Shown here one piece after another: positions 34,174 through 63,446 of a stretch of 64,000 nucleotides of DNA. Below the pieces are notes generated by a model. It saw only the letters and a program-made list of their open reading frames with translations, was not told the DNA's origin and made no database searches. The translations under genes and the position numbers were made by a program. The DNA comes from a virus, in IMG/VR virus record IMGVR_UViG_3300045921_000730, positions 1 to 64,000 of that record; one strand, 5' to 3'. The number at the start of each line of letters is the position of its first letter. Position 1 is the stretch's first letter.

Positions 34174-34197
34174 AAGAGGAGACATATGTCTCCTCTT
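34174..34197 (-). terminator. Rho-independent terminator
   Basis: Perfect 24-base palindrome aagaggagacat/atgtctcctctt, followed on the minus strand by seven Ts. Ends the transcript of the secreted-protein genes at 34269-35612. Confidence 0.85.
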
Positions 34198-34268: not shown

Positions 34269-34877
34269 TTAATTGCTTGTCTTTACAGTCTTACCAAAAC
34301 CATCAACAACAGGCTTATTGACTACAACCTTTTGCATTTCGTCGTCACGTAGAGCGCATGGCTGTCCAACACGCTTGTAAGCAGCACGAACAACTTCGTT
34401 TTCACACATAACTTCCTTGGCTGCTGCTGTATCGCCAAACGTACGAAGTTCACGAGCGTTCAGACGGTTAACGCAATCGGTGTCCTTCCAAGTTGTGCCA
34501 GCTGAGAAACCAAAACCAACACCAGCACCGCCAATTGACGTTGAACCCATACACGTTTCAGTTAGAGTTGTTGTTAGGTTTGGAGCAACAACACCCGGTA
34601 CATTCTTGAGCTCATATCCGCCTTGATAACGAACAGTAGTTTCGGCTGGGTTGTTAATTGTTAGAGCTTGGTTGTTGCCTTGCAGCTGACCTTGAACGGT
34701 TGTGTTATTGGTGCTTGAAGAAACACCACTAACAGAAGAATTGCTATTAGCTTGTGTGCCAGAAGCAAAACCAGAATTGTTTTGCGTTTGAGCATAAGCT
34801 GGATTAACACCAGCAACCGTTACAACACCAACTAAAGTTGCTACTGCGCCTGCATAAAAAAGATCTAGAATTTTCAT
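34269..34877 (-). CDS. Secreted protein with signal peptide
   Basis: 202 aa. Signal peptide (AVATLVGVVTVAGVNPAYA), an Asn/Ser/Gln-rich linker, then a conserved region with four cysteines: TETCMGSTSIGGAGVGFGFSAG, DCVNRLNARELRTFG, MCENEVVRAAY, PCALRDDE. Similar proteins occur in other large phages. Shine-Dalgarno aggagaaat. Exported to the periplasm or virion surface; role unknown. Confidence 0.6.
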   Translation of the reverse strand: MKILDLFYAGAVATLVGVVTVAGVNPAYAQTQNNSGFASGTQANSNSSVSGVSSSTNNTTVQGQLQGNNQALTINNPAETTVRYQGGYELKNVPGVVAPNLTTTLTETCMGSTSIGGAGVGFGFSAGTTWKDTDCVNRLNARELRTFGDTAAAKEVMCENEVVRAAYKRVGQPCALRDDEMQKVVVNKPVVDGFGKTVKTSN

Positions 34878-34949: not shown

Positions 34950-35612
34950 TTAGTGACCAATCTTACCCTTAGCAAAGGCACTACCTTGTTGGGTGCCAAC
35001 GCCAAAACCAGATACAATATCACCAGGAGCAGTAGTTACACCCCAGTTGTTAACATGTGAAAACCCGTTGCTCGTTGCGGATGAAGTAGTGGACTTAGAT
35101 GGGGAAAGTGTATTCTTATAGTTGGAGTATGAATTATTCTCAGCTATACCGTAGCTGCCAGACACGGCATTGCCTGTGCCTATTACACCAGCACCACTCC
35201 CGGTGTTAACACCAACAAGAGACGTGTTATCAATTTTGCCACCATAATGTTCACCGTTTGTGTCAGTTACTGTGATTGAACCATTACCGGTTTGTTGACC
35301 AAAAGCACCAGCCCCGCCTTGTCCAATACCATTGGCCCAAGTAGTGGTGCTACCATTTGTATAGGCATATGTTGAACCACTGCCCTCATAATTACCAGCG
35401 TTGGCACTACCACCCACACCGGTTGTGTTCAATGCGGAACCACCGACGGAATGTGTACTGAAATCAACACCAGAACCAGAAATGTTTGATACGGAAAAAG
35501 AGCCTACAGAAACAGTTGCTGATGAAGTTACAGCAGCATTATAAGATGGACCTGTTGCCATTGCGGCACCAGCAAAACCAGAAATTACAACAGCAAGAAT
35601 CGTTTTATTCAT
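34950..35612 (-). CDS. Gly/Ser/Thr-rich secreted protein
   Basis: 220 aa. Signal peptide (MNKTILAVVISGFAGAAMA) and a low-complexity beta-type body (SVSNISGSGVDFSTHSVGGS, GIGQGGAGAFGQQTGNGSI) resembling adhesin passenger or curlin-like repeats. Upstream lies the family B unit with its sigma70-type promoter, about 250 bases before the start. Possibly a surface fibre or biofilm-like factor made during infection. Confidence 0.55.
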   Translation of the reverse strand: MNKTILAVVISGFAGAAMATGPSYNAAVTSSATVSVGSFSVSNISGSGVDFSTHSVGGSALNTTGVGGSANAGNYEGSGSTYAYTNGSTTTWANGIGQGGAGAFGQQTGNGSITVTDTNGEHYGGKIDNTSLVGVNTGSGAGVIGTGNAVSGSYGIAENNSYSNYKNTLSPSKSTTSSATSNGFSHVNNWGVTTAPGDIVSGFGVGTQQGSAFAKGKIGH

Positions 35613-35690
35613 ATTTTTTTCCTTTCAAAAAAGTTAAATTACTTATTCGTTCATTACTGAACTTGACAACAACTTACCACAGATCAAAAC

Positions 35691-35891
35691 TGGACTACTG
35701 CTTGTTCTTAAGAAGAAGCAGAGGTCACCTAATGACAACCGTGATTCCTGCTTCATCGTGGCATCTACTTCAGCCACTCCACAGGCGTAGATTCGGCCAG
35801 TCCCCAACCTATATATTTTATTTTTTTGTACTCATTTGTTGCAAAATGGGTTCTTAATTAAAATTATAACAGACTTTCATCCACTTGTCAA
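35691..35891 (-). mobile_element. Family B unit, copy 1: promoter + tnpB 3' remnant + right-end hairpin
   Basis: Minus orientation. A consensus promoter TTGACA (35891-35886), 17 bases, TATAAT (35868-35863) leads into a stretch whose translation (RIYACGVAEVDATMKQESRL) is a typical TnpB C-terminus. It is closed by the right-end hairpin. About 80% alike to 40355-40551 by eye. It fills most of the 367-base gap upstream of the 34950-35612 gene and provides that gene's most evident promoter. May encode an omega-RNA. Confidence 0.7.
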
Positions 35892-35979
35892 CAACAACTT
35901 GTCAATTTTTAATTATTCTTAACAAAAACTTACTTTCTGAGCCGAATTCCTTACAACAGAACTCGTATTTTCACAGACA

Positions 35980-36207
35980 TTAAATCCTTTGAACTACCGC
36001 TTGTCTAAAGAACAAGTAGCTTTCTTTGGTAGTATTTGTAAATTCATTAAGGTCAAAATCTGTTTTTTCAGACACACGAACTCGAACATTGTTCGTTTTA
36101 TTGACAAGATACCCCTGTCGAATTTCTTCAACAGACAAAGAATGTTTTGTAATAAAACGATAATATTTTGATTTTACAAGGAATTTTCGTTCAATTTCTA
36201 CGCCCAT
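35980..36207 (-). pseudogene. Truncated CYTH-domain gene
   Basis: Begins MGVEIERKFLVKSKYY, the hallmark of CYTH (adenylate cyclase/thiamine triphosphatase) domains, and continues to NNVRVRV, then runs into a right-end scar (35991-36020) and stops. Only about 75 of the usual ~150 residues remain and the catalytic C-terminal strands are missing. Directly downstream of a TnpB gene, so element activity probably removed the rest. Confidence 0.65.
35991..36020 (-). repeat. Right-end scar inside the CYTH remnant
   Basis: On the minus strand ttgttctttagacaagcggtagttc, preceded by ctac. Same scar as at 24141-24171 in the other orientation. Confidence 0.6.
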
Positions 36208-36247
36208 ATTGTATTTGTTTTTCTGTGAAAGACGATAAATAGTATAA

Positions 36248-37477
36248 TTATGTCGTTTTATAAAAATCAATAAAACTAACTAAACGCTTCAACGAGGATG
36301 CCTTAGGCATTTCTACCTTTGGTCTTAATTCCTCTCGACGTCTGTAATCGGCTAATTCGTCCGATGTAAATCCATAAAGATCGTCAAGACCTTTAAGTAA
36401 AATGTTCATTGCAGCATTCAAGTCTCGATCATGTAATGAACCACAAGACGGGCAGGTCCATTCTCTTACCGAGAGTTCCATGCTAGCCATCTTGTGACCA
36501 CAACATGAGCAAAGTTTTGAACTCGGATAGAAGGTGTCAATCTGTTGAAATGACCGACCATACCAGTTGCTCTTGTATGCAACCATAGACACAAAGGATG
36601 ACCAAGAAACATCTTGTATGGACTTAGCCAATCTGCGGTTCTTTACCATGCCCTTAACGTTCAGCTTTTCCATGCAAATGGTATCGTAGTTGTTCACTAA
36701 CCAAGTAGATAGATTATGGTAGAACCAGTTTCGTTGATTGGTTATTTTTTGATGGTTTTTAGCAACCTTGATTCTTTGCTTATTCCAACGATTTGACCCT
36801 TTAACCTTACGACTTAAATGCTGCTGTGCTCTTTTAAGTTTAGATTGGCTTTCTCTAAACCACCTTGGGTTTGAAATCTTCAGGCCATTACTCATGACTA
36901 TCAAGTCTTTCAACCCGAGATCAATACCGATAGAGCGACCGGTATTTGGTTTCAATTCTAGCTCTTCTTCAACTAGAACTGAAACAAAATACTGACCAGA
37001 AGGATTTCTTGAAATTGTCACTGATTTAGGGGCGCCATTGAATTTCCGATCAACCACCATCTTCATTGGAGACATTTTCGTGAGTTTGATTGTTCCAGCA
37101 TCTAAATCAAATGCCTTCATTCCACCCAATGATGCAGCAGGGATCCTAAACGAATCACGTGATTTCCCTTTGCATTTGAACTTCATCCGCCCAAGTTTAA
37201 CGGCTCGTTTCTTGTTGAAGAATTGCTTTTTGGTCTCATCAAAGTCCATTCGCCTTTGTTGCAAAGCATAACTGATGACTTCTTTTAGCCAAGGATATCT
37301 AGGATCGTCTTTCAAGGTCTTTTCAGTGACTGTTTGAGTTGGACCATCCTTAGACCAAGAATTAAAGTTGGCTACCAGTTGATTCCAGACGAATCGGACG
37401 CAACCAAAGTTCTGCAACAAGAATTGCTCTTGCTCTTTTGTTGGATACAGTCGGTATTTGTAAGCTCTTAGAATCAT
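36248..37477 (-). CDS. tnpB: TnpB nuclease (IS605/IS607 OrfB), copy 1
   Basis: 409 aa from the ATG at 37477 (MILRAYKYRLYPTKEQ); a longer in-frame start adds 28 residues foreign to the family. Catalytic RuvC residues are intact: SIGIDLGLKDLIVMS, ICMEKLNVKGM and HDRDLNAAMN; the zinc ribbon is CSCCGH...CPSCGS. Closest to the copy at 48470-49711. In known TnpBs the protein uses an omega-RNA from its own 3' end to cut target DNA. No clear left or right ends of the TTYAT/tagttca type were found here. Confidence 0.9.
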   Translation of the reverse strand: MILRAYKYRLYPTKEQEQFLLQNFGCVRFVWNQLVANFNSWSKDGPTQTVTEKTLKDDPRYPWLKEVISYALQQRRMDFDETKKQFFNKKRAVKLGRMKFKCKGKSRDSFRIPAASLGGMKAFDLDAGTIKLTKMSPMKMVVDRKFNGAPKSVTISRNPSGQYFVSVLVEEELELKPNTGRSIGIDLGLKDLIVMSNGLKISNPRWFRESQSKLKRAQQHLSRKVKGSNRWNKQRIKVAKNHQKITNQRNWFYHNLSTWLVNNYDTICMEKLNVKGMVKNRRLAKSIQDVSWSSFVSMVAYKSNWYGRSFQQIDTFYPSSKLCSCCGHKMASMELSVREWTCPSCGSLHDRDLNAAMNILLKGLDDLYGFTSDELADYRRREELRPKVEMPKASSLKRLVSFIDFYKTT

Positions 37478-37681
37478 TGAACCTGTATAAATAAAATCGT
37501 ATGGGACAGCCCAGTCACCTGTAGCTGAGGTTGGAGTTCCTGCTAAGAACTTCCTAACCATACATCTATTTATGCAAAAAGATATTTGGTCATCGCTTCT
37601 ATATAATTTTTACAGGAATTTTATAGTTGTTGATTGAAATGGAAATTTACATACAATATTGATACTTTAAGGAAGACAACG

Positions 37682-37873
37682 ATGAACATCAAACCTGAAA
37701 ACGAAACAGCCACACCAACACTTTCCCTAATCCAAAAATTACTTTCTTGGGTTGATAAGCCTTGGAAAGTTCTTGGGTTAATTATGATTGTTGTAGTTGT
37801 CGTTGGAACATATATTGTGTGGGAAAGCAGAGAAAAATTTGTTGACGCTATAATCGAAGTTATTAAAAATTAA
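37682..37873 (+). CDS. Small single-pass membrane protein
   Basis: Start at the ATG 37682 (Shine-Dalgarno taaggaagac). 63 aa, N-terminal soluble, one transmembrane segment (VLGLIMIVVVVVGTYIVW) and a charged tail. Type and size fit a phage holin or accessory membrane peptide, unproven. Confidence 0.5.
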   Translation: MNIKPENETATPTLSLIQKLLSWVDKPWKVLGLIMIVVVVVGTYIVWESREKFVDAIIEVIKN

Positions 37874-37952
37874 GTTAAAATTTTCAAAAAAAGATGAATT
37901 AAACAAGCACATACAGACAAATTAATACTTCTGTGATTTGTCGTAAGCAGAA

Positions 37953-37984
37953 AAAAAGAGCAGAATTAATTCTGCTCTTTTTTC
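37953..37984. terminator. Bidirectional terminator
   Basis: Stem aaaagagcagaatt/aattctgctctttt with A-run before and T-run after, between convergent genes ending at 37873 and 38006. Works in both directions. Confidence 0.85.
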
Positions 37985-38005
37985 ATTGGGTAAAATAACT
38001 TCAGC

Positions 38006-38188
38006 TTAGATTAGGGTAGAAGCCTTATAGCCATGGCTCTTCCAAAAAACACGGATCTTACCATTGCGTGCTACTTCTTGATCACGAATTGTAACAATCG
38101 ATTCAGTCTTACGAATCTTTGTTTGACCAAGAACACGAACACGAGCACCTGCCGGAATTGTAATTTGCTTGCCAATATAGTTCTTCAT
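38006..38188 (-). CDS. Small basic phage protein
   Basis: 60 aa with a beta-barrel-like pattern (ITIPAGARVRVLG, IRVFWKSHGYKAST), as in short conserved phage proteins of unknown function. Has a consensus-like promoter at 38236-38264. Confidence 0.55.
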   Translation of the reverse strand: MKNYIGKQITIPAGARVRVLGQTKIRKTESIVTIRDQEVARNGKIRVFWKSHGYKASTLI

Positions 38189-38235
38189 AATTTATTTCTC
38201 CTTATGTCTAATGTGTCATATATATGACACGACAA

Positions 38236-38264
38236 ATTATATTACAGTTACATTTAAAAATCAA
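38236..38264 (-). promoter_or_regulatory. Sigma70-type promoter
   Basis: Minus strand TTGATT (38264-38259), 17-base spacer, TATAAT (38241-38236). Confidence 0.65.
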
Positions 38265-38471
38265 CTACTCTGGTTTGTACACAAATACAGTTGTACAATA
38301 CACATACCCATTTTCCACCCTTGTGCAGTGGCTAGACATTGGTGTTGAAGTTCCAACAAGATTTTGTGCTGCTTGAATGTTTTGTTGCTTCAAATCTCTA
38401 TCGCTAACTCCAACATCAAATTTACAACCGCTTAGTACCAACGCAATTGAACCCAAAATTAATCTTTTCAT
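38265..38471 (-). CDS. Small lipoprotein
   Basis: 68 aa. Lipobox LSGC (MKRLILGSIALVLSGC); after the anchor a short soluble part with two more cysteines (HCTRVENGYVYCTT). Outer-membrane or periplasmic location predicted. Function unknown; lipoproteins of this type in phages often mediate superinfection exclusion (inference). Confidence 0.6.
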   Translation of the reverse strand: MKRLILGSIALVLSGCKFDVGVSDRDLKQQNIQAAQNLVGTSTPMSSHCTRVENGYVYCTTVFVYKPE

Positions 38472-38486
38472 ATAATTACCACATTA

Positions 38487-38520
38487 AAACCTGATGTTGT
38501 TTAGACATGAGGATGAATTG
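38487..38520 (+). repeat. Solo left-end hairpin of a TnpB element
   Basis: aaacctgatgttgtttagacatgaggatgaattg matches the left ends at 50039 and 61688, and TTCAT precedes it by 16 bases. TTCAT here is the reversed ATGAA start of the lipoprotein gene. No tnpB follows. Confidence 0.6.
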
Positions 38521-38568
38521 TGGATTCCTCCTTTCTTCAATATATTCACACAAAAAATACCAACTTCT

Positions 38569-38779
38569 ATGAACTACCACGCAGTTAAAGACGACACGGT
38601 TTCCGAACTTATCGACCCAGCTAACATCACTGGTGCCTCCTTCGGTTTTTGTTTAATGTCCGACTGCGTCCCACAACCAGACATTATCATTTATAATCAT
38701 AAACCAATTAGATACCATTGTGTTGATTCGTCCATATGACTGAAGATCATGTGGTTTTCTCAACCTTAAAGACAATAAA
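38569..38779 (-). mobile_element. Mini-element family A, copy 2
   Basis: Divergent copy (about 85% like copy 1 by eye). Right-end stem ACCGTG/CGTGGT is kept by two G-U pairs. Left end preceded by TTTTAT. Promoter-like TATAAATG instead of CATAAATA. Lies 98 bases upstream of the lipoprotein gene, same orientation. Confidence 0.75.
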
Positions 38780-38803
38780 ACTTCTATTTTTTTATTAGGG
38801 TTT

Positions 38804-39226
38804 TTATTCCTCTTTAAATTGTTCACAGATAGGATCTAACCACCCGCTTAACGTATCTTTATTCAATGCTAACATGAGCCGTTGTCCTTCATTGAGTGGT
38901 ATCTCGTCTTTAAACAAGTTAAAATAATCTCTGCATAAAATTTCTTGTTTTTCAACATCAAGATCATTTATGTCTACATAGCCATCGTTATCGTTTTCTT
39001 CTTCTCCGCTTTCGTTTATGAGATAACTAACGTAACGTTCTACCCAGAGTGTCGTTAAAGCATGGTCAAGATTAATAATTGCGTCTTTGTATTCTTTGCT
39101 AGTGTTCTTTAATTCTTCTACTTCTTCTAGCTGTTGAACTTGTTGATATGCAAAATAGCTGATAGAAACGGGCACAACAATGAATAGTACGCCAAGAGTC
39201 GTTAAAGCTATTTTACGAATGTTCAT
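38804..39226 (-). CDS. Membrane-anchored protein
   Basis: 140 aa. One N-terminal transmembrane segment (TTLGVLFIVVPVSISYFAY) followed by a helical, acidic periplasmic part (EEENDNDGYVDINDLD, an EF-hand-like acidic run). No family recognised. Confidence 0.5.
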   Translation of the reverse strand: MNIRKIALTTLGVLFIVVPVSISYFAYQQVQQLEEVEELKNTSKEYKDAIINLDHALTTLWVERYVSYLINESGEEENDNDGYVDINDLDVEKQEILCRDYFNLFKDEIPLNEGQRLMLALNKDTLSGWLDPICEQFKEE

Positions 39227-39355
39227 TTTATTACTCCTTTTTCCAGTTACATAATCTATGTATTAAAAAATAGGTATGGGGAATCAATAATCAACGAATA
39301 GGTAATTTAACTTTTTTGTTGTGCCTATAATTTGAATTTATAATGTTTGAACTTG

Positions 39356-40279
39356 TTAAAATTTTCTTCCAAAGCCAATCATGAACAAATCTTGATCTCT
39401 GTTATAAAACGACGTAATTCTTGTAAATGTTCCACCAACAAAATAATCACCAAAATCTCTAACTATTCTGATAGAACCAGCCATCATTAGTTTTATTTGT
39501 TCAGTTGATCTTTTGTTATCAACAGCAAGATAAGGACCAATACCACCACTCAGTGTCCACTGTTCTGATGGCTTATAATCATACCAACCCTGAAAATACA
39601 TTCCAGTTCTATCAACAAGACCGGTATTACCTTCATAAAGTAAACCACCACCAAATGAAATGCGAGAAATGTTATACTGTTGTTTGATGTCTAACATCAC
39701 TGGTGTGGCATTTTTTTGTGTACCAATTTGTGTTGTACGAGAAGAACCTGACCAAACGCTCAAATATACTTTATCGAATACTTTTTCAGAATTGTTTACA
39801 GAATTATTCCAATCTTTACCAATACCAAACAATACACTATTTGAATTTGTGGTTGTCATTAAAATATTATTGTATTGAGCACGAAGATACCATCCATCTT
39901 GTAAATAATACTTAAGCGTTGCTGATGAAATTAAACCAACGTGGAAATCATTTAAACGATTTTCGTTTTGAAGTGTATTGTTGTTACTAATATATGGACC
40001 AGTACCAACTTGGTAATAAAGTGAATTCGTAATTTTGTCAGTATACCAGCCTTGTACAGCAAAGCCGTCCCTGTGATTATTTTCGCTGTGACCTTCGTTT
40101 AAGTAAGAAAACCCCACACCAAATTTATTGTTGATTTGTGAAATAAATCCGCTTTGTAATGTCCAAGTCGTATTAGGAGCATCAGCATTTTGTAAAGCAC
40201 CGCCTTGAAAATATACTTCACCACCATTAGCAAACGCTGTTGAACAAAACAATAATGGAAAAAGAGTTATGTATTTCAT
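39356..40279 (-). CDS. Outer-membrane beta-barrel protein
   Basis: 307 aa. Signal peptide (MKYITLFPLLFCSTAFA), alternating amphipathic strands throughout and a C-terminal phenylalanine (MIGFGRKF), the insertion signal of outer-membrane proteins. The protein appears internally duplicated: FGVGFSYLNEG...GWYTDK...GTGPYIS and FGGGLLYEGN...GWYDYK...GIGPYLA. A phage gene for a host outer-membrane barrel is unusual; receptor masking or envelope change are possible. Its leader contains family B copy 2. Confidence 0.7.
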   Translation of the reverse strand: MKYITLFPLLFCSTAFANGGEVYFQGGALQNADAPNTTWTLQSGFISQINNKFGVGFSYLNEGHSENNHRDGFAVQGWYTDKITNSLYYQVGTGPYISNNNTLQNENRLNDFHVGLISSATLKYYLQDGWYLRAQYNNILMTTTNSNSVLFGIGKDWNNSVNNSEKVFDKVYLSVWSGSSRTTQIGTQKNATPVMLDIKQQYNISRISFGGGLLYEGNTGLVDRTGMYFQGWYDYKPSEQWTLSGGIGPYLAVDNKRSTEQIKLMMAGSIRIVRDFGDYFVGGTFTRITSFYNRDQDLFMIGFGRKF

Positions 40280-40295
40280 GCACTTTCCTTTGATG

Positions 40296-40344
40296 TGGTG
40301 CTCTGTAGAGGAATCAAACCTCTGTAAGCTGTTTACGAAATAGC
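40296..40344 (-). pseudogene. 3' fragment of a tRNA gene, Thr(CGT)-like
   Basis: Minus strand: anticodon arm GCTAT TTCGTAA ACAGC (anticodon CGT), T arm AGAGG TTTGATT CCTCT, acceptor 3' strand ACAGAGC, A, CCA. The acceptor 5' strand and a proper D arm are missing. In their place the family B right end (tagttcag) ends nine bases upstream. A tRNA gene was therefore cut or replaced by the element. Confidence 0.65.
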
Positions 40345-40354
40345 TATAATACTA

Positions 40355-40551
40355 CTGAACTACCACTTGTTCTTAAGAACAACTGGGGTCACCCAACGGT
40401 AACCTTGATTCCTGTTTCATTGTGGCATTTATTTCAGCCACTCTACAGGAGTAAATTCGGCCAGTTCCCAACCTATATGTTTTATTTGTTTCCATTTGTT
40501 GCAAAACGTGTTCCTAATTAAAATAATAACACACTTTCATCCACATGTCAA
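40355..40551 (-). mobile_element. Family B unit, copy 2
   Basis: Same unit as 35691-35891: promoter TTGACA (40551-40546), 17 bases, TATTAT; TnpB-C-terminus-like frame (MKQESRLPLGD... ending in TAA in the hairpin), right end ttgttcttaagaacaagtggtagttcag. It fills most of the gap upstream of the beta-barrel gene. The -10 is about 245 bases before the barrel gene start, as in copy 1. Confidence 0.7.
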
Positions 40552-40580
40552 CAAGTAGGATTTGTGTGGATAGTACTAAG

Positions 40581-40817: not shown

Positions 40818-42083
40818 CTACCGCGTAGCTAAAGACAACGCGGTTTTCCTGCTCCCCATGTCAACTCCAAAAATGCTTGAAGATCTCTCGATTTTAGCGA
40901 CATGTTTTTGCAAGGACGTTGGGATCACTCCCACTTCGGGCATCTCACCCGAAGGAATAAGTTGATCATAGCAATCTAGCTGACCAAAGTTTTTAATGTT
41001 GATAGCAGCATTTAAGTCTCGATCATGTTCAGTACCACAACCAGGGCAATGCCATTCCCGAGTACCAAGATCAAGTTTCTCAAGTTTGTGCCCACAGCAC
41101 GAACACGTCTTGCTAGATGGAACAAACGGATCAATTTGATGGAATGTCCTACCAGCAGAGGCTGACTTGCAGGAAATCATGGAAACAAGCGTTGACCAAG
41201 CAGTTTCATGGATTTTTCTTGAGAGTTTTCTGTTCTTCAACATTCCAGAAGCATTCAAGTTCTCCATGTAAATGGTATCAAAGTTTTGAATCAAGTAGGA
41301 GCTAATGTTGTGGTAGTACCAATTTCTAATGTTGGCAATCTTCTCGTAGCACTTAGCTACTTTGATTCGTTGAGCTTCTCTGTTCTTACTGCCTTTAGTC
41401 TTTCTTGCTAAAATGCGCTGCTGCTTCTTAAGTGCTAACTTGGCTTTCGCTAGCATTGCTTCAGGATGTTGGAATTTGAGTCCGGTTGAAAGGACGCAGA
41501 GGTCCTTCAAACCAAGATCAATCCCCACTTCTTGCTCGGTAGAAGGTAGAACTGAAACATCTTCTTCTACCAAGATGGAAACAAAAAACTTACCTGACGG
41601 AGTCTTTGACACTGTAGCTGATTTGATGGTTCCTTCGAACTTTCTGTCTAGAGCAATCTTGACATTCTTGATCTTTGGTAACTTGACTGTGCTGTTCTCA
41701 AAATCAACTTTGACATCACGAGTCCTGTAGGACTGATAATTTGATTTAGACTTGAATCTGGGTGCTTGTAGCTTTGGACCTTTTCGTTTTCCGGTGATAG
41801 AATTTAAGAAGTTTTGGTATGCTGTGTGCAGGTCTTCGGCTGCATGTTTCAAACACCAGTCGTCAATTTCTCTGAGCCAAGCAGTTTCTGGTTGTTTCTT
41901 GAGTTGAGTAATCTGTACGTTGATGTCGTAGTTGTTCAGATGTTTTTCTTTGTTGGCAAATCGTTGTTTGTTTTCGTGGAGGTAATGGTTGAAAATCCAA
42001 CGCTTGGCACCAAAGAACTGTGTTAGCAGCGCCTCTTCTGCTTTGTTTGGATACAACCTATACTTGTATGCTCTTAATTCCAC
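40818..42083 (-). CDS. tnpB: TnpB nuclease, copy 2
   Basis: 421 aa from a GTG at 42083 (MELRAYKYRLYPNKAEE). RuvC-I VGIDLGLKDLCVLS, RuvC-II IYMENLNASGML, zinc ribbon CSCCGHKLEKLDLG...CPGCGT, RuvC-III EHDRDLNAAINI: all catalytic acids present. Its last codons (TALSLATR-stop) form the right-end hairpin, so the omega-RNA scaffold would overlap the 3' end of the gene. N-terminal third is nearly identical to the copy at 50149. Confidence 0.92.
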   Translation of the reverse strand: MELRAYKYRLYPNKAEEALLTQFFGAKRWIFNHYLHENKQRFANKEKHLNNYDINVQITQLKKQPETAWLREIDDWCLKHAAEDLHTAYQNFLNSITGKRKGPKLQAPRFKSKSNYQSYRTRDVKVDFENSTVKLPKIKNVKIALDRKFEGTIKSATVSKTPSGKFFVSILVEEDVSVLPSTEQEVGIDLGLKDLCVLSTGLKFQHPEAMLAKAKLALKKQQRILARKTKGSKNREAQRIKVAKCYEKIANIRNWYYHNISSYLIQNFDTIYMENLNASGMLKNRKLSRKIHETAWSTLVSMISCKSASAGRTFHQIDPFVPSSKTCSCCGHKLEKLDLGTREWHCPGCGTEHDRDLNAAINIKNFGQLDCYDQLIPSGEMPEVGVIPTSLQKHVAKIERSSSIFGVDMGSRKTALSLATR

Positions 42084-42112
42084 TTGACAAACCTTTGTTG
42101 TTCTGTTATAAT
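42084..42112 (+). promoter_or_regulatory. Outward sigma70-type promoter at the tnpB start
   Basis: Plus strand TTGACA (42084-42089), 17-base spacer, TATAAT (42107-42112): exact consensus, reading away from tnpB; the -35 abuts the tnpB GTG. Similar outward promoters occur at 49712 and 50120. Confidence 0.65.
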
Positions 42113-55656: not shown

Positions 55657-55808
55657 ACAAAATGTCACCGCAAGCACCGCTTGTCTATCCACGTGGGTTT
55701 AAAATGGACATAAAAGTTAACGCCAGTTGTATTTTTGATGAAAATTGTGTAAACTACGGTCATGTAATAAATGTTGTGTTTGATAAATTGAAGAAAGAAG
55801 TGGACAAC

Positions 55809-56576
55809 ATGAATACTGAGATTCAACGAATTGTAGATTTTCGTGGGAACCAGCATTGGTACTTGAATGGAAAACTTCATCGTGAAGATGGACCTGCTGT
55901 TATCAATGCTGATGGTTCTGAAGAATGGTACTTGAATGGAAAACGACATCGGGTAGATGGACCTGCAATTACTTGCAACAGAGGGTCTAAAGATTGGTAC
56001 TTGAATGGAAAACGGCACCGTGAGGATGGGCCTGCAATTATTTTAGCTGATGGGACTCAAATCTGGTATCTAAAAGGAAAACTCCACCGCAAAGATGGAC
56101 CGGCGGTTATCTATCCCGACGGGTCTAAACGTTGGTACAACCACGGAAAATATCATCGCGAAGATGGGCCTGCCTATATTAACAGCGATGGTTCTGAGCA
56201 ATGGTACTTGCACGGGAAACTCCATCGCGAAGATGGGCCTGCAGCTATTCGTAGTGATGGATCTGAAGAATGGTACTCACACGGGGTACTTCATCACGAA
56301 GATGGACCTGCGGTTATTCGCAACGATGGTTCTGAGTATTGGTATATGTATGGAAAACTTCATCGTGAAGATGGACCTGCTGTTATTAATGCTGATGGTT
56401 CTAAATATTGGCATAAACACGGGAAACTTCATTGTGAAAATGGACCTGCTGTTATCAATGCTGATGGGTCTAAGGTTTGGTACCTATATGATGTCAAACT
56501 TTCCTTTAATGAGTGGTTAGAAAGATTGAAATTCAATGAAGAAGAGAAACTATTATTAATTCTGAAGTTTGTATGA
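55809..56576 (+). CDS. Tandem-repeat protein (MORN-like WYxxGKxHREDGPA repeats), paralogue 1
   Basis: 255 aa from the ATG at 55809 (MNTEIQRIVDFRGNQ), chosen by comparison with its paralogues; an in-frame ATG at 55662 is less likely. About nine 23-residue repeats of the type WYLNGKLHREDGPAVINADG, then a capping segment EWLERLKFNEEEKLLLILKF. Resembles MORN_2-like repeats seen in phages and giant viruses. A rigid beta-scaffold for binding is inferred. The ~150 bases before it hold no supported gene. Confidence 0.7.
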   Translation: MNTEIQRIVDFRGNQHWYLNGKLHREDGPAVINADGSEEWYLNGKRHRVDGPAITCNRGSKDWYLNGKRHREDGPAIILADGTQIWYLKGKLHRKDGPAVIYPDGSKRWYNHGKYHREDGPAYINSDGSEQWYLHGKLHREDGPAAIRSDGSEEWYSHGVLHHEDGPAVIRNDGSEYWYMYGKLHREDGPAVINADGSKYWHKHGKLHCENGPAVINADGSKVWYLYDVKLSFNEWLERLKFNEEEKLLLILKFV

Positions 56577-56616
56577 ACAACGGTTAACATAACACAACAA
56601 AACAGAAACAAGTGAC

Positions 56617-57384
56617 ATGAATATTGAGATTGAGCCAGTCGTAGATTCTGAAGGAAATCGGTATTGGTACTTGAACGGGGAACTTCGCCGCGAAGATGGA
56701 TCTGTGGTTATGTATAACAACGATTCTGAGTATTGGTATGTGAACGGAAAACTTCACCGCAAAGATGGACCTGTCGTTGTTTATAGTGATGGTTCTGAGA
56801 TCTGGTATTTGGATGGAAAACGACATCGGGTAGATGGACCTGCAATTGTTTATAACGATGGTTCCGAAGAATGGTACTTCAACGGAAAACTTCACCGTGA
56901 AGATGGACCTGCCATTGTTTATAGCAATAGTTCAAAACATTGGTATAAACATGGAAAACGACATCGCACAGATGGGCCTGCAATTGTCTATGTTGATGGC
57001 ACCAAAGAATGGTATCTTAATGGAAAGCGACACCGGCTAGACGGACCTGCTATTATCAGTGCTACTGGTACTGAAGAATGGTACTTGAATGGAGAACGAC
57101 ACCGTGAAGATGGACCTGCGGTTGTGTATAGCGATGGGTCTAAGCGTTGGTATAAACATGGGAGATACCATCGTGAAGATGGACCCGCCATTGTTTATAG
57201 CAATGGTTCTCAATATTGGTACTTGAATGGAAAGCGACACCGGGAAGACGGACCTGCAATTGTCCATGGAGATGGTACTATGTTGTGGTTTTTAAATGAT
57301 ATTAGATTCTCTTTTGAGAAATGGTTAGAAAAAAGCAATTTTAGTGAAGAAGAAAAGCTACTTTTGATTCTGAAGTTTGGATAA
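56617..57384 (+). CDS. Tandem-repeat protein, paralogue 2
   Basis: 255 aa (MNIEIEPVVDSEGNRYWYL), about nine repeats, cap KWLEKSNFSEEEKLLLILKF. A 40-base spacer from gene 1 is homologous to the 40-base spacer to gene 3, so the array arose by tandem gene duplication. Repeat DNA is about 69 bp per unit and diverged, giving room for recombination. Confidence 0.7.
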   Translation: MNIEIEPVVDSEGNRYWYLNGELRREDGSVVMYNNDSEYWYVNGKLHRKDGPVVVYSDGSEIWYLDGKRHRVDGPAIVYNDGSEEWYFNGKLHREDGPAIVYSNSSKHWYKHGKRHRTDGPAIVYVDGTKEWYLNGKRHRLDGPAIISATGTEEWYLNGERHREDGPAVVYSDGSKRWYKHGRYHREDGPAIVYSNGSQYWYLNGKRHREDGPAIVHGDGTMLWFLNDIRFSFEKWLEKSNFSEEEKLLLILKFG

Positions 57385-57424
57385 ACAATGCTTAACACAG
57401 CGCGCCAAAATAAAAACAAGCGAC

Positions 57425-57916
57425 ATGAACACTGAACTTAAACGAATTGTAGATTCCCATGGGAACCAACTCTGGTACTTGCACAGTGTGCTTCACCGTG
57501 AAGATGGACCTGCGATTATATATCGTGATGGTTCCGAGTGTTGGTATAAACATGGGAAATACCATCGCGAAGATGGACCTGCTATTGTGTATAGTAATGG
57601 TAATAAGTACTGGTACTTGAACGGAAAACTTCATCGTAAAGATGGACCTGCAATTGTCTATAACAATGGTTCTAACTTGTGGTACTTGAATGGAAAACTC
57701 CATCGTGAAGATGGACCTGCGATTGTGTATAATGATGGTACCAAGTATTGGTACTTGCACGGGAAGCTTCATCGGGAAAATGGACCTGCTATTATTAGTG
57801 CCGACGGTTCTGAAAAATGGTACTTAGGTGGTGTTGAGTTTACTTTTAATGAATGGTTAGAAAAAGTCAAAACCAGCGAAGAAGAGAAACTATTATTAAT
57901 TCTGAAATTTAGATAA
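57425..57916 (+). CDS. Tandem-repeat protein, paralogue 3 (shorter)
   Basis: 163 aa from the ATG at 57425 (MNTELKRIVDSHGNQ), about five repeats, cap EWLEKVKTSEEEKLLLILKF. The start is preceded by aaacaagcgac as in paralogue 2. The changed repeat number between paralogues suggests slippage or selection. Confidence 0.7.
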   Translation: MNTELKRIVDSHGNQLWYLHSVLHREDGPAIIYRDGSECWYKHGKYHREDGPAIVYSNGNKYWYLNGKLHRKDGPAIVYNNGSNLWYLNGKLHREDGPAIVYNDGTKYWYLHGKLHRENGPAIISADGSEKWYLGGVEFTFNEWLEKVKTSEEEKLLLILKFR

Positions 57917-61780: not shown

Positions 61781-61806
61781 ATATATGACAAAGGTATTTA
61801 TATAAA

Positions 61807-62997
61807 ATGTTCATCAGACAAAATTACAGAATATATCCTAACAAAGAGCAGACCTCAATTCTGAACCAATGGCTTGGTCAGGGTAGATATATTTGGAATT
61901 TCATGTTAACCAAGAACATAGAAACATACCAAGAAACTAAAAAGTTTATTTTTGAAATAGACATGAATAATCTTCTACCTGGTTTGAAACGGCAAGAAGA
62001 AACATCTTGGTTAAAAGAAATACCAGCACAATGTTTACAACAGAAGTGTCAAGATTTGTCACAAGCATTAAAACAGTCTTTTAAGACAAATAAAAGCAAA
62101 AAGGGATTTCCAAAATTTAAGTCAAAAAAGACTGATGAATCTGGCATCAGATTCCCATCATTCAAATTTGAGGGTGACAGGATCAAGTTACCTAAAATGT
62201 CACAAGGAATCAAAATTAAGTTACATCGTGATTTGCTTGGGAAGAAATCATCAGTTACTATATTTCGAGATAAAACCGGAGTCTTCTGGGCATCTATACT
62301 TGTTTCTATTGATGATGTTGTCCCAACGAACACTATTTCTAATGTGGTAGGTATTGATGTCGGATTAAAAGAATTCGCGGTCACATCAGACGCTGAAATA
62401 ATCAAAAACCCGAAATTTCTAAAAAGAACGGCAAAGAAACTAGCAAAAGCTCAAGCAAAACATAGTAGAAAAGAAAAAGGTTCGTCAAACAAAGAAAAAC
62501 AAAGAATTAAAGTTGCAAAAATTTACAGAAAAATAAGCAATCAACGTAAAGATTTTATCAATCAAGTTGCTAGTTCGATAGGCAAGACAAACGACTTGAT
62601 TGTAGTTGAAAATCTCAATGTAAAAGGTATGATGAAAAATCCTAACCTAGCTAAATCTATTTCAGATGTTAGTTGGGGAATGTTTTTATCCGCTTTAAAG
62701 TGGCATTGTAAGAAACGGGGCAAACACTTCGTTGAGATTTCACAATGGTATCCTTCAAGCAAAATGTGTTCATGTTGTGGAAATAAAAAATCAGATTTGT
62801 CCTTGAGCGACAGAACATACGAATGTAAAGAATGTGGTTTCACGATGGATAGAGATTTAAATGCTGCCATTAACATTCTGAAAGAAGGTATCAACCTTTT
62901 CAATACCGTAGGAACTACGGAAATTAACGCCTGTGGAGATATGAGTTCTGAAGTAGGGAACTCAGCCCAGGAAGCTAGTTGTTCTTTAGACAACTAG
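61807..62997 (+). CDS. tnpB: TnpB nuclease, copy 5
   Basis: 396 aa, ATG (MFIRQNYRIYPNKEQ). RuvC-I VVGIDVGLKEFAVTSD, RuvC-II LIVVENLNVKGMM, zinc ribbon CSCCGNKKSDLS...CKECGF, RuvC-III MDRDLNAAINIL. The C-terminal INACGDMSSE...SCSLDN resembles the family B and solo-scar peptides, so this copy or a relative is the likely source of those. More A/T-rich and diverged from the other four. Confidence 0.92.
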   Translation: MFIRQNYRIYPNKEQTSILNQWLGQGRYIWNFMLTKNIETYQETKKFIFEIDMNNLLPGLKRQEETSWLKEIPAQCLQQKCQDLSQALKQSFKTNKSKKGFPKFKSKKTDESGIRFPSFKFEGDRIKLPKMSQGIKIKLHRDLLGKKSSVTIFRDKTGVFWASILVSIDDVVPTNTISNVVGIDVGLKEFAVTSDAEIIKNPKFLKRTAKKLAKAQAKHSRKEKGSSNKEKQRIKVAKIYRKISNQRKDFINQVASSIGKTNDLIVVENLNVKGMMKNPNLAKSISDVSWGMFLSALKWHCKKRGKHFVEISQWYPSSKMCSCCGNKKSDLSLSDRTYECKECGFTMDRDLNAAINILKEGINLFNTVGTTEINACGDMSSEVGNSAQEASCSLDN

Positions 62998-63065: not shown

Positions 63066-63131
63066 ATCTTACTAAAGAAATAATCGACGCATTGGTGAGC
63101 AATAACGGTTGACTGAATACTTAAAATCGAC

Positions 63132-63139
63132 TATAAATA
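63132..63139 (+). promoter_or_regulatory. Late-promoter-like TATAAATA before the tmRNA
   Basis: Exact motif just upstream of the tmRNA acceptor piece. Confidence 0.55.
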
Positions 63140-63144
63140 TATAT

Positions 63145-63438
63145 GTTAGTGAGTAATCACTGACAATGAGTGTATGAAGCAATCTGTAGACGGGCAAGAC
63201 ACGAGTTCGAATCTCGTCGCCTCCACAAATATTAACTCATGGGGGCGTTATGGAATCGATTGACGGGCGAAGGAAAGTGGACACTTCGAGAGACGACTGA
63301 CGTAATCAGCGTAAAACCTTAAATGCAAACGATGCATTTTATAATGAGGAATTCCGCCTAGCAGCGTAAACCTCAGGGGGAGCGTAGATTCCTTCTTACC
63401 CAACATCTACCGAAAGGACAGTCTTAAGACTGTCCTTT
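63145..63438 (+). ncRNA. ssrA: Two-piece (circularly permuted) tmRNA
   Basis: The acceptor piece comes first: T arm ACGAG TTCGAAT CTCGT and acceptor 3' strand CGCCTCC + A (63201-63225). After a 15-base intervening stretch comes the coding piece, whose 5' end GGGGGCG (63241-63247) pairs with it. The third pair is G-U (63243/63222), the alanine identity element. The tag frame, resume codon GCA at 63325, reads ANDAFYNEEFRLAA-stop. A terminator follows. CCA is not encoded. This order is that of permuted alphaproteobacterial ssrA. Rescues stalled ribosomes and tags proteins for proteolysis. Confidence 0.9.
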
Positions 63439-63446
63439 TTGTTTTT
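63413..63446 (+). terminator. Rho-independent terminator of the tmRNA
   Basis: aaaggacagtctt/aagactgtccttt, then tttgttttt. Confidence 0.9.

Follow-up and report, generated by a model that had tools for sequence, protein, structure and literature searches.

Two short units in a jumbo-phage genome, here called B1 and B2, are very probably the remains of a TnpB element that has lost its core. They lie in a window of 64,000 nucleotides (nt), which is bases 1-64000 of the IMG/VR virus record IMGVR_UViG_3300045921_000730; the whole record is 244,293 bp long. Each unit joins a left end with a host-type promoter to an omega-RNA-like scaffold and a right end, and stands shortly before a gene for an exported-looking protein. 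The promoter of each unit probably gives rise to one transcript, which would carry at its 5' end an omega RNA used in trans and further on the mRNA of the exported protein; the guide part of this reading is held with less confidence than the rest. Genome-wide tests were made on the complete record, and coordinates beginning with "G000:" are positions in it. The features of the B1 and B2 loci are given as positions in the window and are all on the minus strand.

Unit B1 extends over 35691..35894 and unit B2 over 40356..40554. The original prediction described two related nuclease-less units in these places, and alignment bears this out. The units are 84% identical across 206 nt, and their likeness ends at both borders (45% identity in the left flanks, 43% in the right), which sets their boundaries. 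A right-end hairpin, also predicted, is seen in both, and hairpin-like sequence can be recognized by inspection at the left end. No Rfam family covers the units.

The parent of the units can be found in the same genome. A search of the record, which had been proposed as a check, found two further copies, so that family B has four members rather than two. The third copy (G000:234923-235058) belongs to a complete tnpB frame of 400 codons, TnpB-B (G000:233838-235037), and forms its 3' end. The product of this frame can be aligned with solved structures of TnpB (E 2e-59) and has retained the RuvC motifs GIDVG, ALEDLN and HDRDVNA; from these D/E/D motifs it is predicted to be an intact cognate nuclease. 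The fourth copy, B4 (G000:201897-202021), consists of scaffold and right end only and directly follows another gene. It has no promoter. The promoter is therefore not a feature of the whole family, and a promoterless copy was a result that the original prediction itself had named as refuting.

Four observations connect B1 and B2 to TnpB-B. The last 135 nt of TnpB-B are 86% identical to B1 and 89% identical to B2. For both units, the match to the parent starts at one and the same position of tnpB, which lies 135 nt short of the right end. When the 29-nt promoter of B1 was scanned over both strands (about 488,000 positions), the top match outside family B, with 21/29 positions and the same spacing, was in the left end of TnpB-B. 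This site, TAGACA-17-TAGAAT at G000:233773-233801, lies 65 nt before the TnpB-B frame; with the B2 promoter as query it scores 20/29, tied with three others. Finally, B2 has an open frame of 40 codons (40373..40495; METNKTYRLGTGRIYSC...MKQESRLPLGDPSCS and a stop) in which a start codon is joined to the TnpB C-terminus. Together, these observations indicate that the B units are core-deleted TnpB elements and that their promoter is the tnpB promoter. Thus, the promoter is not an addition special to family B; it comes from the left end of the parent, of which the genome has an intact copy. As judged from sequence, there is little doubt about origin and anatomy: B1 and B2 derive by internal deletion from a TnpB element of the IS200/IS605 type and are similar to the palindrome-associated transposable elements (PATEs).

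The frame resembling a TnpB C-terminus that had been noticed in both copies can now be read as the TnpB C-terminal frame itself, open in B2 and broken in B1. In B1 it reads ...YRLGTGRIYACGVAEVDATMKQESRL... and has no counterpart of the B2 start codon, and a stop comes after five codons. The intact frame of B2, with its start codon, would suit a gene for a TnpB C-terminal peptide of about 40 amino acids. Such a small-protein function is very improbable for the units in general, and for B1 the broken frame refutes it.

A relative of TnpB-B is present in a fragment of a sister phage, IMGVR_UViG_3300009702_000119, which is 16.7 kb long and collinear with G000:156-170 kb. The two TnpB-B sequences are 59% identical. 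In the sister fragment the gene sits where this phage has a family-A piece, and its left end has an ATAAATA-type motif in place of the host-type promoter. Because of the family-A piece, this fragment does not offer a clean comparison with an empty site. No empty-site relative was found for the B1 and B2 insertions, and the left flanks of B1, B2 and TnpB-B share no motif that could be fixed. Other viruses were searched for further B units with a degenerate 20-nt scaffold pattern, which matched the tnpB of the sister fragment only, and with a longer pattern, which matched nothing.

The promoters of both units are close to the consensus of the host type, as predicted. That of B1 (35863..35891) is TTGACA-17-TATAAT, with the -35 element at 35891-35886 and the -10 element at 35868-35863, and agrees with the consensus at 12/12 positions. 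That of B2 (40523..40551) is TTGACA-17-TATTAT, with the -35 element at 40551-40546 and the -10 element at 40528-40523, and agrees at 11/12. Both have a spacer of 17 and an extended -10 element (TGn), and in both copies the hexamers, the 17-bp spacing and the TGn are closer to consensus than the promoter of the parent. Sites with at least 11/12 matches, spacer 17 and TGn occur three times in the genome, compared with 0.3 expected in Markov sequence, and B1 and B2 are two of the three. Perfect 12/12 sites occur five times where 0.25 are expected. This excess suggests that host-type promoters are present in several places in the phage, with the B promoters among the best. A second perfect 12/12 TGn promoter is found on the plus strand at window 42084-42112. 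It lies where the tnpB gene at 40818-42083 starts and is directed away from that gene.

Family A and most tnpB starts carry a different kind of signal, late-like motifs of the ATAAATA type. Upstream of genes in this phage, sense copies of ATAAATA are in excess: they precede 61 genes, compared with 26 occurrences in antisense. No such motif lies within 260 nt of the first gene downstream of either B unit. As far as motifs go, the predicted contrast between the host-type promoter of family B and the signal of family A holds.

Downstream of B1 lie a gene for a Gly/Ser-rich protein with a signal-peptide-like N-terminus (34950..35612), a second gene for an exported-looking protein that matches phrog_20531 (34269..34877), and an intrinsic-terminator-like site that closes the transcription unit (34174..34197). 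Downstream of B2 is a gene for an exported-looking protein of 307 amino acids (39356..40279); no terminator was found after this unit. The distance from the end of the -10 element to the downstream ATG is 251 nt for B1 and 244 nt for B2, close to the 245-250 bases that had been predicted, and the distance from the right end to the ATG is 79 and 77 nt. The predicted pair of a Gly/Ser-rich exported protein and a beta-barrel held up in part. Both proteins look exported, with signal peptides judged by eye. The beta-barrel was not confirmed: the B2-downstream protein gave no domain match, and single-sequence models of the two exported proteins had predicted local distance difference test scores of 31-33, too low to be used. 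No family match was found for the Gly/Ser-rich protein, and no relatives of either exported protein were found.

The B promoter is the only good promoter in sight for these exported-protein genes, and it probably reads into them. Alternatively, the units may be pure mobile promoters, kept only to drive newly acquired exported-protein genes in the manner of phage morons, with the scaffold as an inert 5' leader. The lack of any other strong promoter or late motif upstream of both genes, the terminator after the B1 operon and a placement bias that is common to families A and D all agree with this. Nevertheless, both units have kept a scaffold of full omega-RNA length, with compensatory changes in one stem, and a cognate nuclease is present in the genome; this alternative is considered unlikely.

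The position of such units before genes is not special to the two envelope genes singled out in the original prediction, because families A and D share it. In a hand-collected set of 33 non-tnpB units and pieces, which uses mechanical open reading frames and includes related copies and a few partial entries of families A, B and D, 19 have their end within 110 nt upstream of a gene on the same strand, compared with 10.7 +/- 2.7 expected at random intergenic positions (p about 0.001). Co-orientation with the next gene is seen in 20 of 22 units of the promoter-bearing families A, B and D but in only 5 of 11 of the right-end-only families C and T (Fisher p=0.008). Since placement before genes is general for the mini-elements of this phage, it favours a promoter role. 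It could instead reflect a bias of insertion or survival.

Families A and D are derived from other TnpBs of this phage, apparently by the same route as B. Minis of family A are up to 97% identical to the final 116-117 nt of TnpB-A (231808-233172). An example from family D is D99 (G000:99480-99758), which matches TnpB-D (61789-62994) at 100% over 57 nt of the left end and at 99.4% over 160 nt of the 3' end; this identity of 99-100% suggests a recent deletion of the core. Many scraps that consist of a right end or a left end only are found elsewhere in the genome. Some right-end hairpins are directed into the 3' terminal part of a convergent gene (window 11531 and 22090; G000 97460 and 99754). 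The TGA stop codon of that gene either coincides with the reverse complement of TTCA at the right end or is only a few bases away.

The scaffold of each unit consists of the last 135 nt or so of tnpB and the right end (35691..35826 in B1, 40356..40490 in B2). The 135 nt that are kept, with a conserved fold, fall within the 130-150 nt or so expected of an omega RNA. The length also agrees with that of the right-end element RNA (reRNA) of ISDra2, which is about 150 nt including a 16-nt guide (PMC8612924). When the four B scaffolds are folded to a consensus, two pairs of the right-end stem are changed on both sides in B1 so that pairing is kept. Compared with shuffled sequences, B2 (z -3.6) and TnpB-B (z -3.3) fold clearly better, B1 only weakly so (z -1.3) and B4 not at all (z 0.0). 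These scores fit a functional B2, an intermediate B1 and a decayed B4, but with four sequences they are only suggestive.

The flank after the right end provides a predicted 16-nt guide for each unit, at 35675..35690 for B1, where the boundary is placed from TTCA/TCCA, and at 40340..40355 for B2. With a scaffold of this length, a promoter of their own and an intact cognate TnpB, the units might be standalone trans-guide genes only. They would supply TnpB-B with extra guides, for homing or for cutting rivals without insertion, and would do nothing for the downstream genes. For defective TldR loci, it has been proposed that they contribute guide RNA (gRNA) in trans (PMC13418256). No target of either guide was found in the phage's own genome or among exact matches in IMG/VR. 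Moreover, read-through into the genes is expected, since no terminator tail follows the right-end hairpin; we find this explanation distinctly improbable.

Between B2 and its gene lies a sequence resembling the 3' half of a tRNA, with T-arm, acceptor strand and CCA (40296..40340). TnpB-B likewise has such a half behind its right end (G000:235059-235100), in this case resembling tRNA-Pro; in the entire record only five T-arm motifs were found. The terminus of the right end, GGTAGTTCAG, looks like the D-arm of a tRNA, which makes recombination with tRNA genes possible. A reading of the halves as split or permuted tRNAs was rejected, because the genome has no plausible 5' halves. Targeting of a tRNA-Pro gene by the TnpB-B guide was likewise unsupported, as the tRNA likeness begins several bases into the guide.

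The internal deletion brought the left end, which carries the promoter and start codon of tnpB, directly up to the final 135 nt or so of this gene and the right end behind them. We infer the following working for the resulting units. Host RNA polymerase would begin transcription from the promoter in the left end, some 166 nt upstream of the right end. The initial portion of the RNA would fold and be processed as an omega RNA with the flanking sequence as its guide, and TnpB-B could use this RNA in trans. The same transcript would continue into the exported-protein genes and express them; the right-end hairpin has no U-tract behind it, which suggests that transcription also runs on in this way. 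The original prediction offered a promoter with a leader, a guide-RNA gene, or both, and this remains the correct set of readings.

Several results weigh against such a dual role. The differences between B1 and B2 are spread roughly evenly along the unit (83-92% identity) and are not concentrated outside the scaffold. The right end of B1 is TCCA in place of TTCA and its fold is weak, so B1 may be decaying. The guide of B1 has no other match in its own genome with fewer than two mismatches, and that of B2 has no near match there; in IMG/VR, the one collection searched outside the genome, for exact matches and with close relatives hardly represented, neither guide was found. The placement statistic rests on a curated list with mechanical reading frames and related copies. 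Lastly, the record has no match to PF01797, the family of the Y1 transposase TnpA, so that mobility of the B units would need a transposase from elsewhere, which the host may supply in trans.

Some of these results would also be expected if the B units were passive PATE relics, dead or mobilized in trans, that have kept promoter and scaffold only because their divergence is recent. The even divergence, the TCCA and broken frame of B1, and the many end-only scraps in the genome suit this explanation. It does not predict promoters that are near consensus in both copies and better than that of the parent, compensatory changes in the stem of B1, or co-oriented placement before genes. A relic without function is possible but somewhat unlikely.

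Among named elements, the closest kind is the PATE. PATEs are core-deleted IS605-type elements, some with remnants of C-terminal coding sequence, and have been described in Haloquadratum (PMC3119063) and Halanaerobium (PMC7290912). Like them, the B units are short, have near-terminal palindromes, are too small for a transposase (the longest coding frame is 40 codons), arose by deletion of a TnpB-element core and include some C-terminal coding sequence. Unlike them, the B units are found in a phage, have kept the left-end promoter and a whole scaffold of omega-RNA size, share a genome with an intact cognate tnpB, and are mostly co-oriented just before genes.

Other systems are similar in part. 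TnpB produces omega RNA from its own mRNA (PMC10278001), and in ISDra2 as in the B units the scaffold is made up of the 3' end of tnpB together with the right end, and the flank behind it supplies the guide (PMC8612924, PMC10278001). The putative omega RNAs of the B units differ in being encoded at separate loci without tnpB and with their own promoter. The TldR-gRNA systems of prophages also place a TnpB-derived guide RNA beside surface-protein genes in a phage (PMC13418256). However, no nuclease-dead TnpB homologue was found for family B or adjoins its units, the cognate TnpB keeps its catalytic motifs, and no promoter target was found. Phage morons resemble the B loci in having accessory exported-protein genes, a promoter of host type and, in the case of B1, a terminator; in the B loci the promoter is derived from a TnpB mini-element, and B2 has no terminator that could be found.

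The record is identified as a phage by an NAD-dependent DNA ligase, an RNA ligase and further phage families. The nearest cultured relatives of the DNA ligase, at 40-45% identity, are in jumbo phages of Sinorhizobium, Stenotrophomonas, Agrobacterium and Xanthomonas, and the 6-kb stretch around B1 and B2 has no nucleotide relative among INPHARED phages. The record has seven tnpB genes. Rfam, but not ARAGORN, reports a permuted (two-piece) transfer-messenger RNA of betaproteobacterial type at window 63118-63441, in the stretch that separates TnpB-D from a family-A unit. Genes made of many 69-nt (23-codon) tandem repeats form three consecutive arrays at window 55768-57821.

PATEs, described at a time when omega RNA was not yet known, have been regarded as dead scraps of IS605 elements. 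In this phage, for several TnpB families, an intact nuclease coexists with minis that bear promoter and scaffold. A speculative view, which we put forward only tentatively, is that a jumbo phage runs several TnpB systems in parallel. Each system would combine a single intact nuclease gene with dispersed nuclease-less guide-RNA units, and these units would have become mobile promoters, early in family B or late-like in A and D, so that one transcript would provide TnpB with a guide and also express an accessory gene. The genome makes it directly testable whether minis act both as trans guide-RNA genes and as portable promoters of phage accessory genes.

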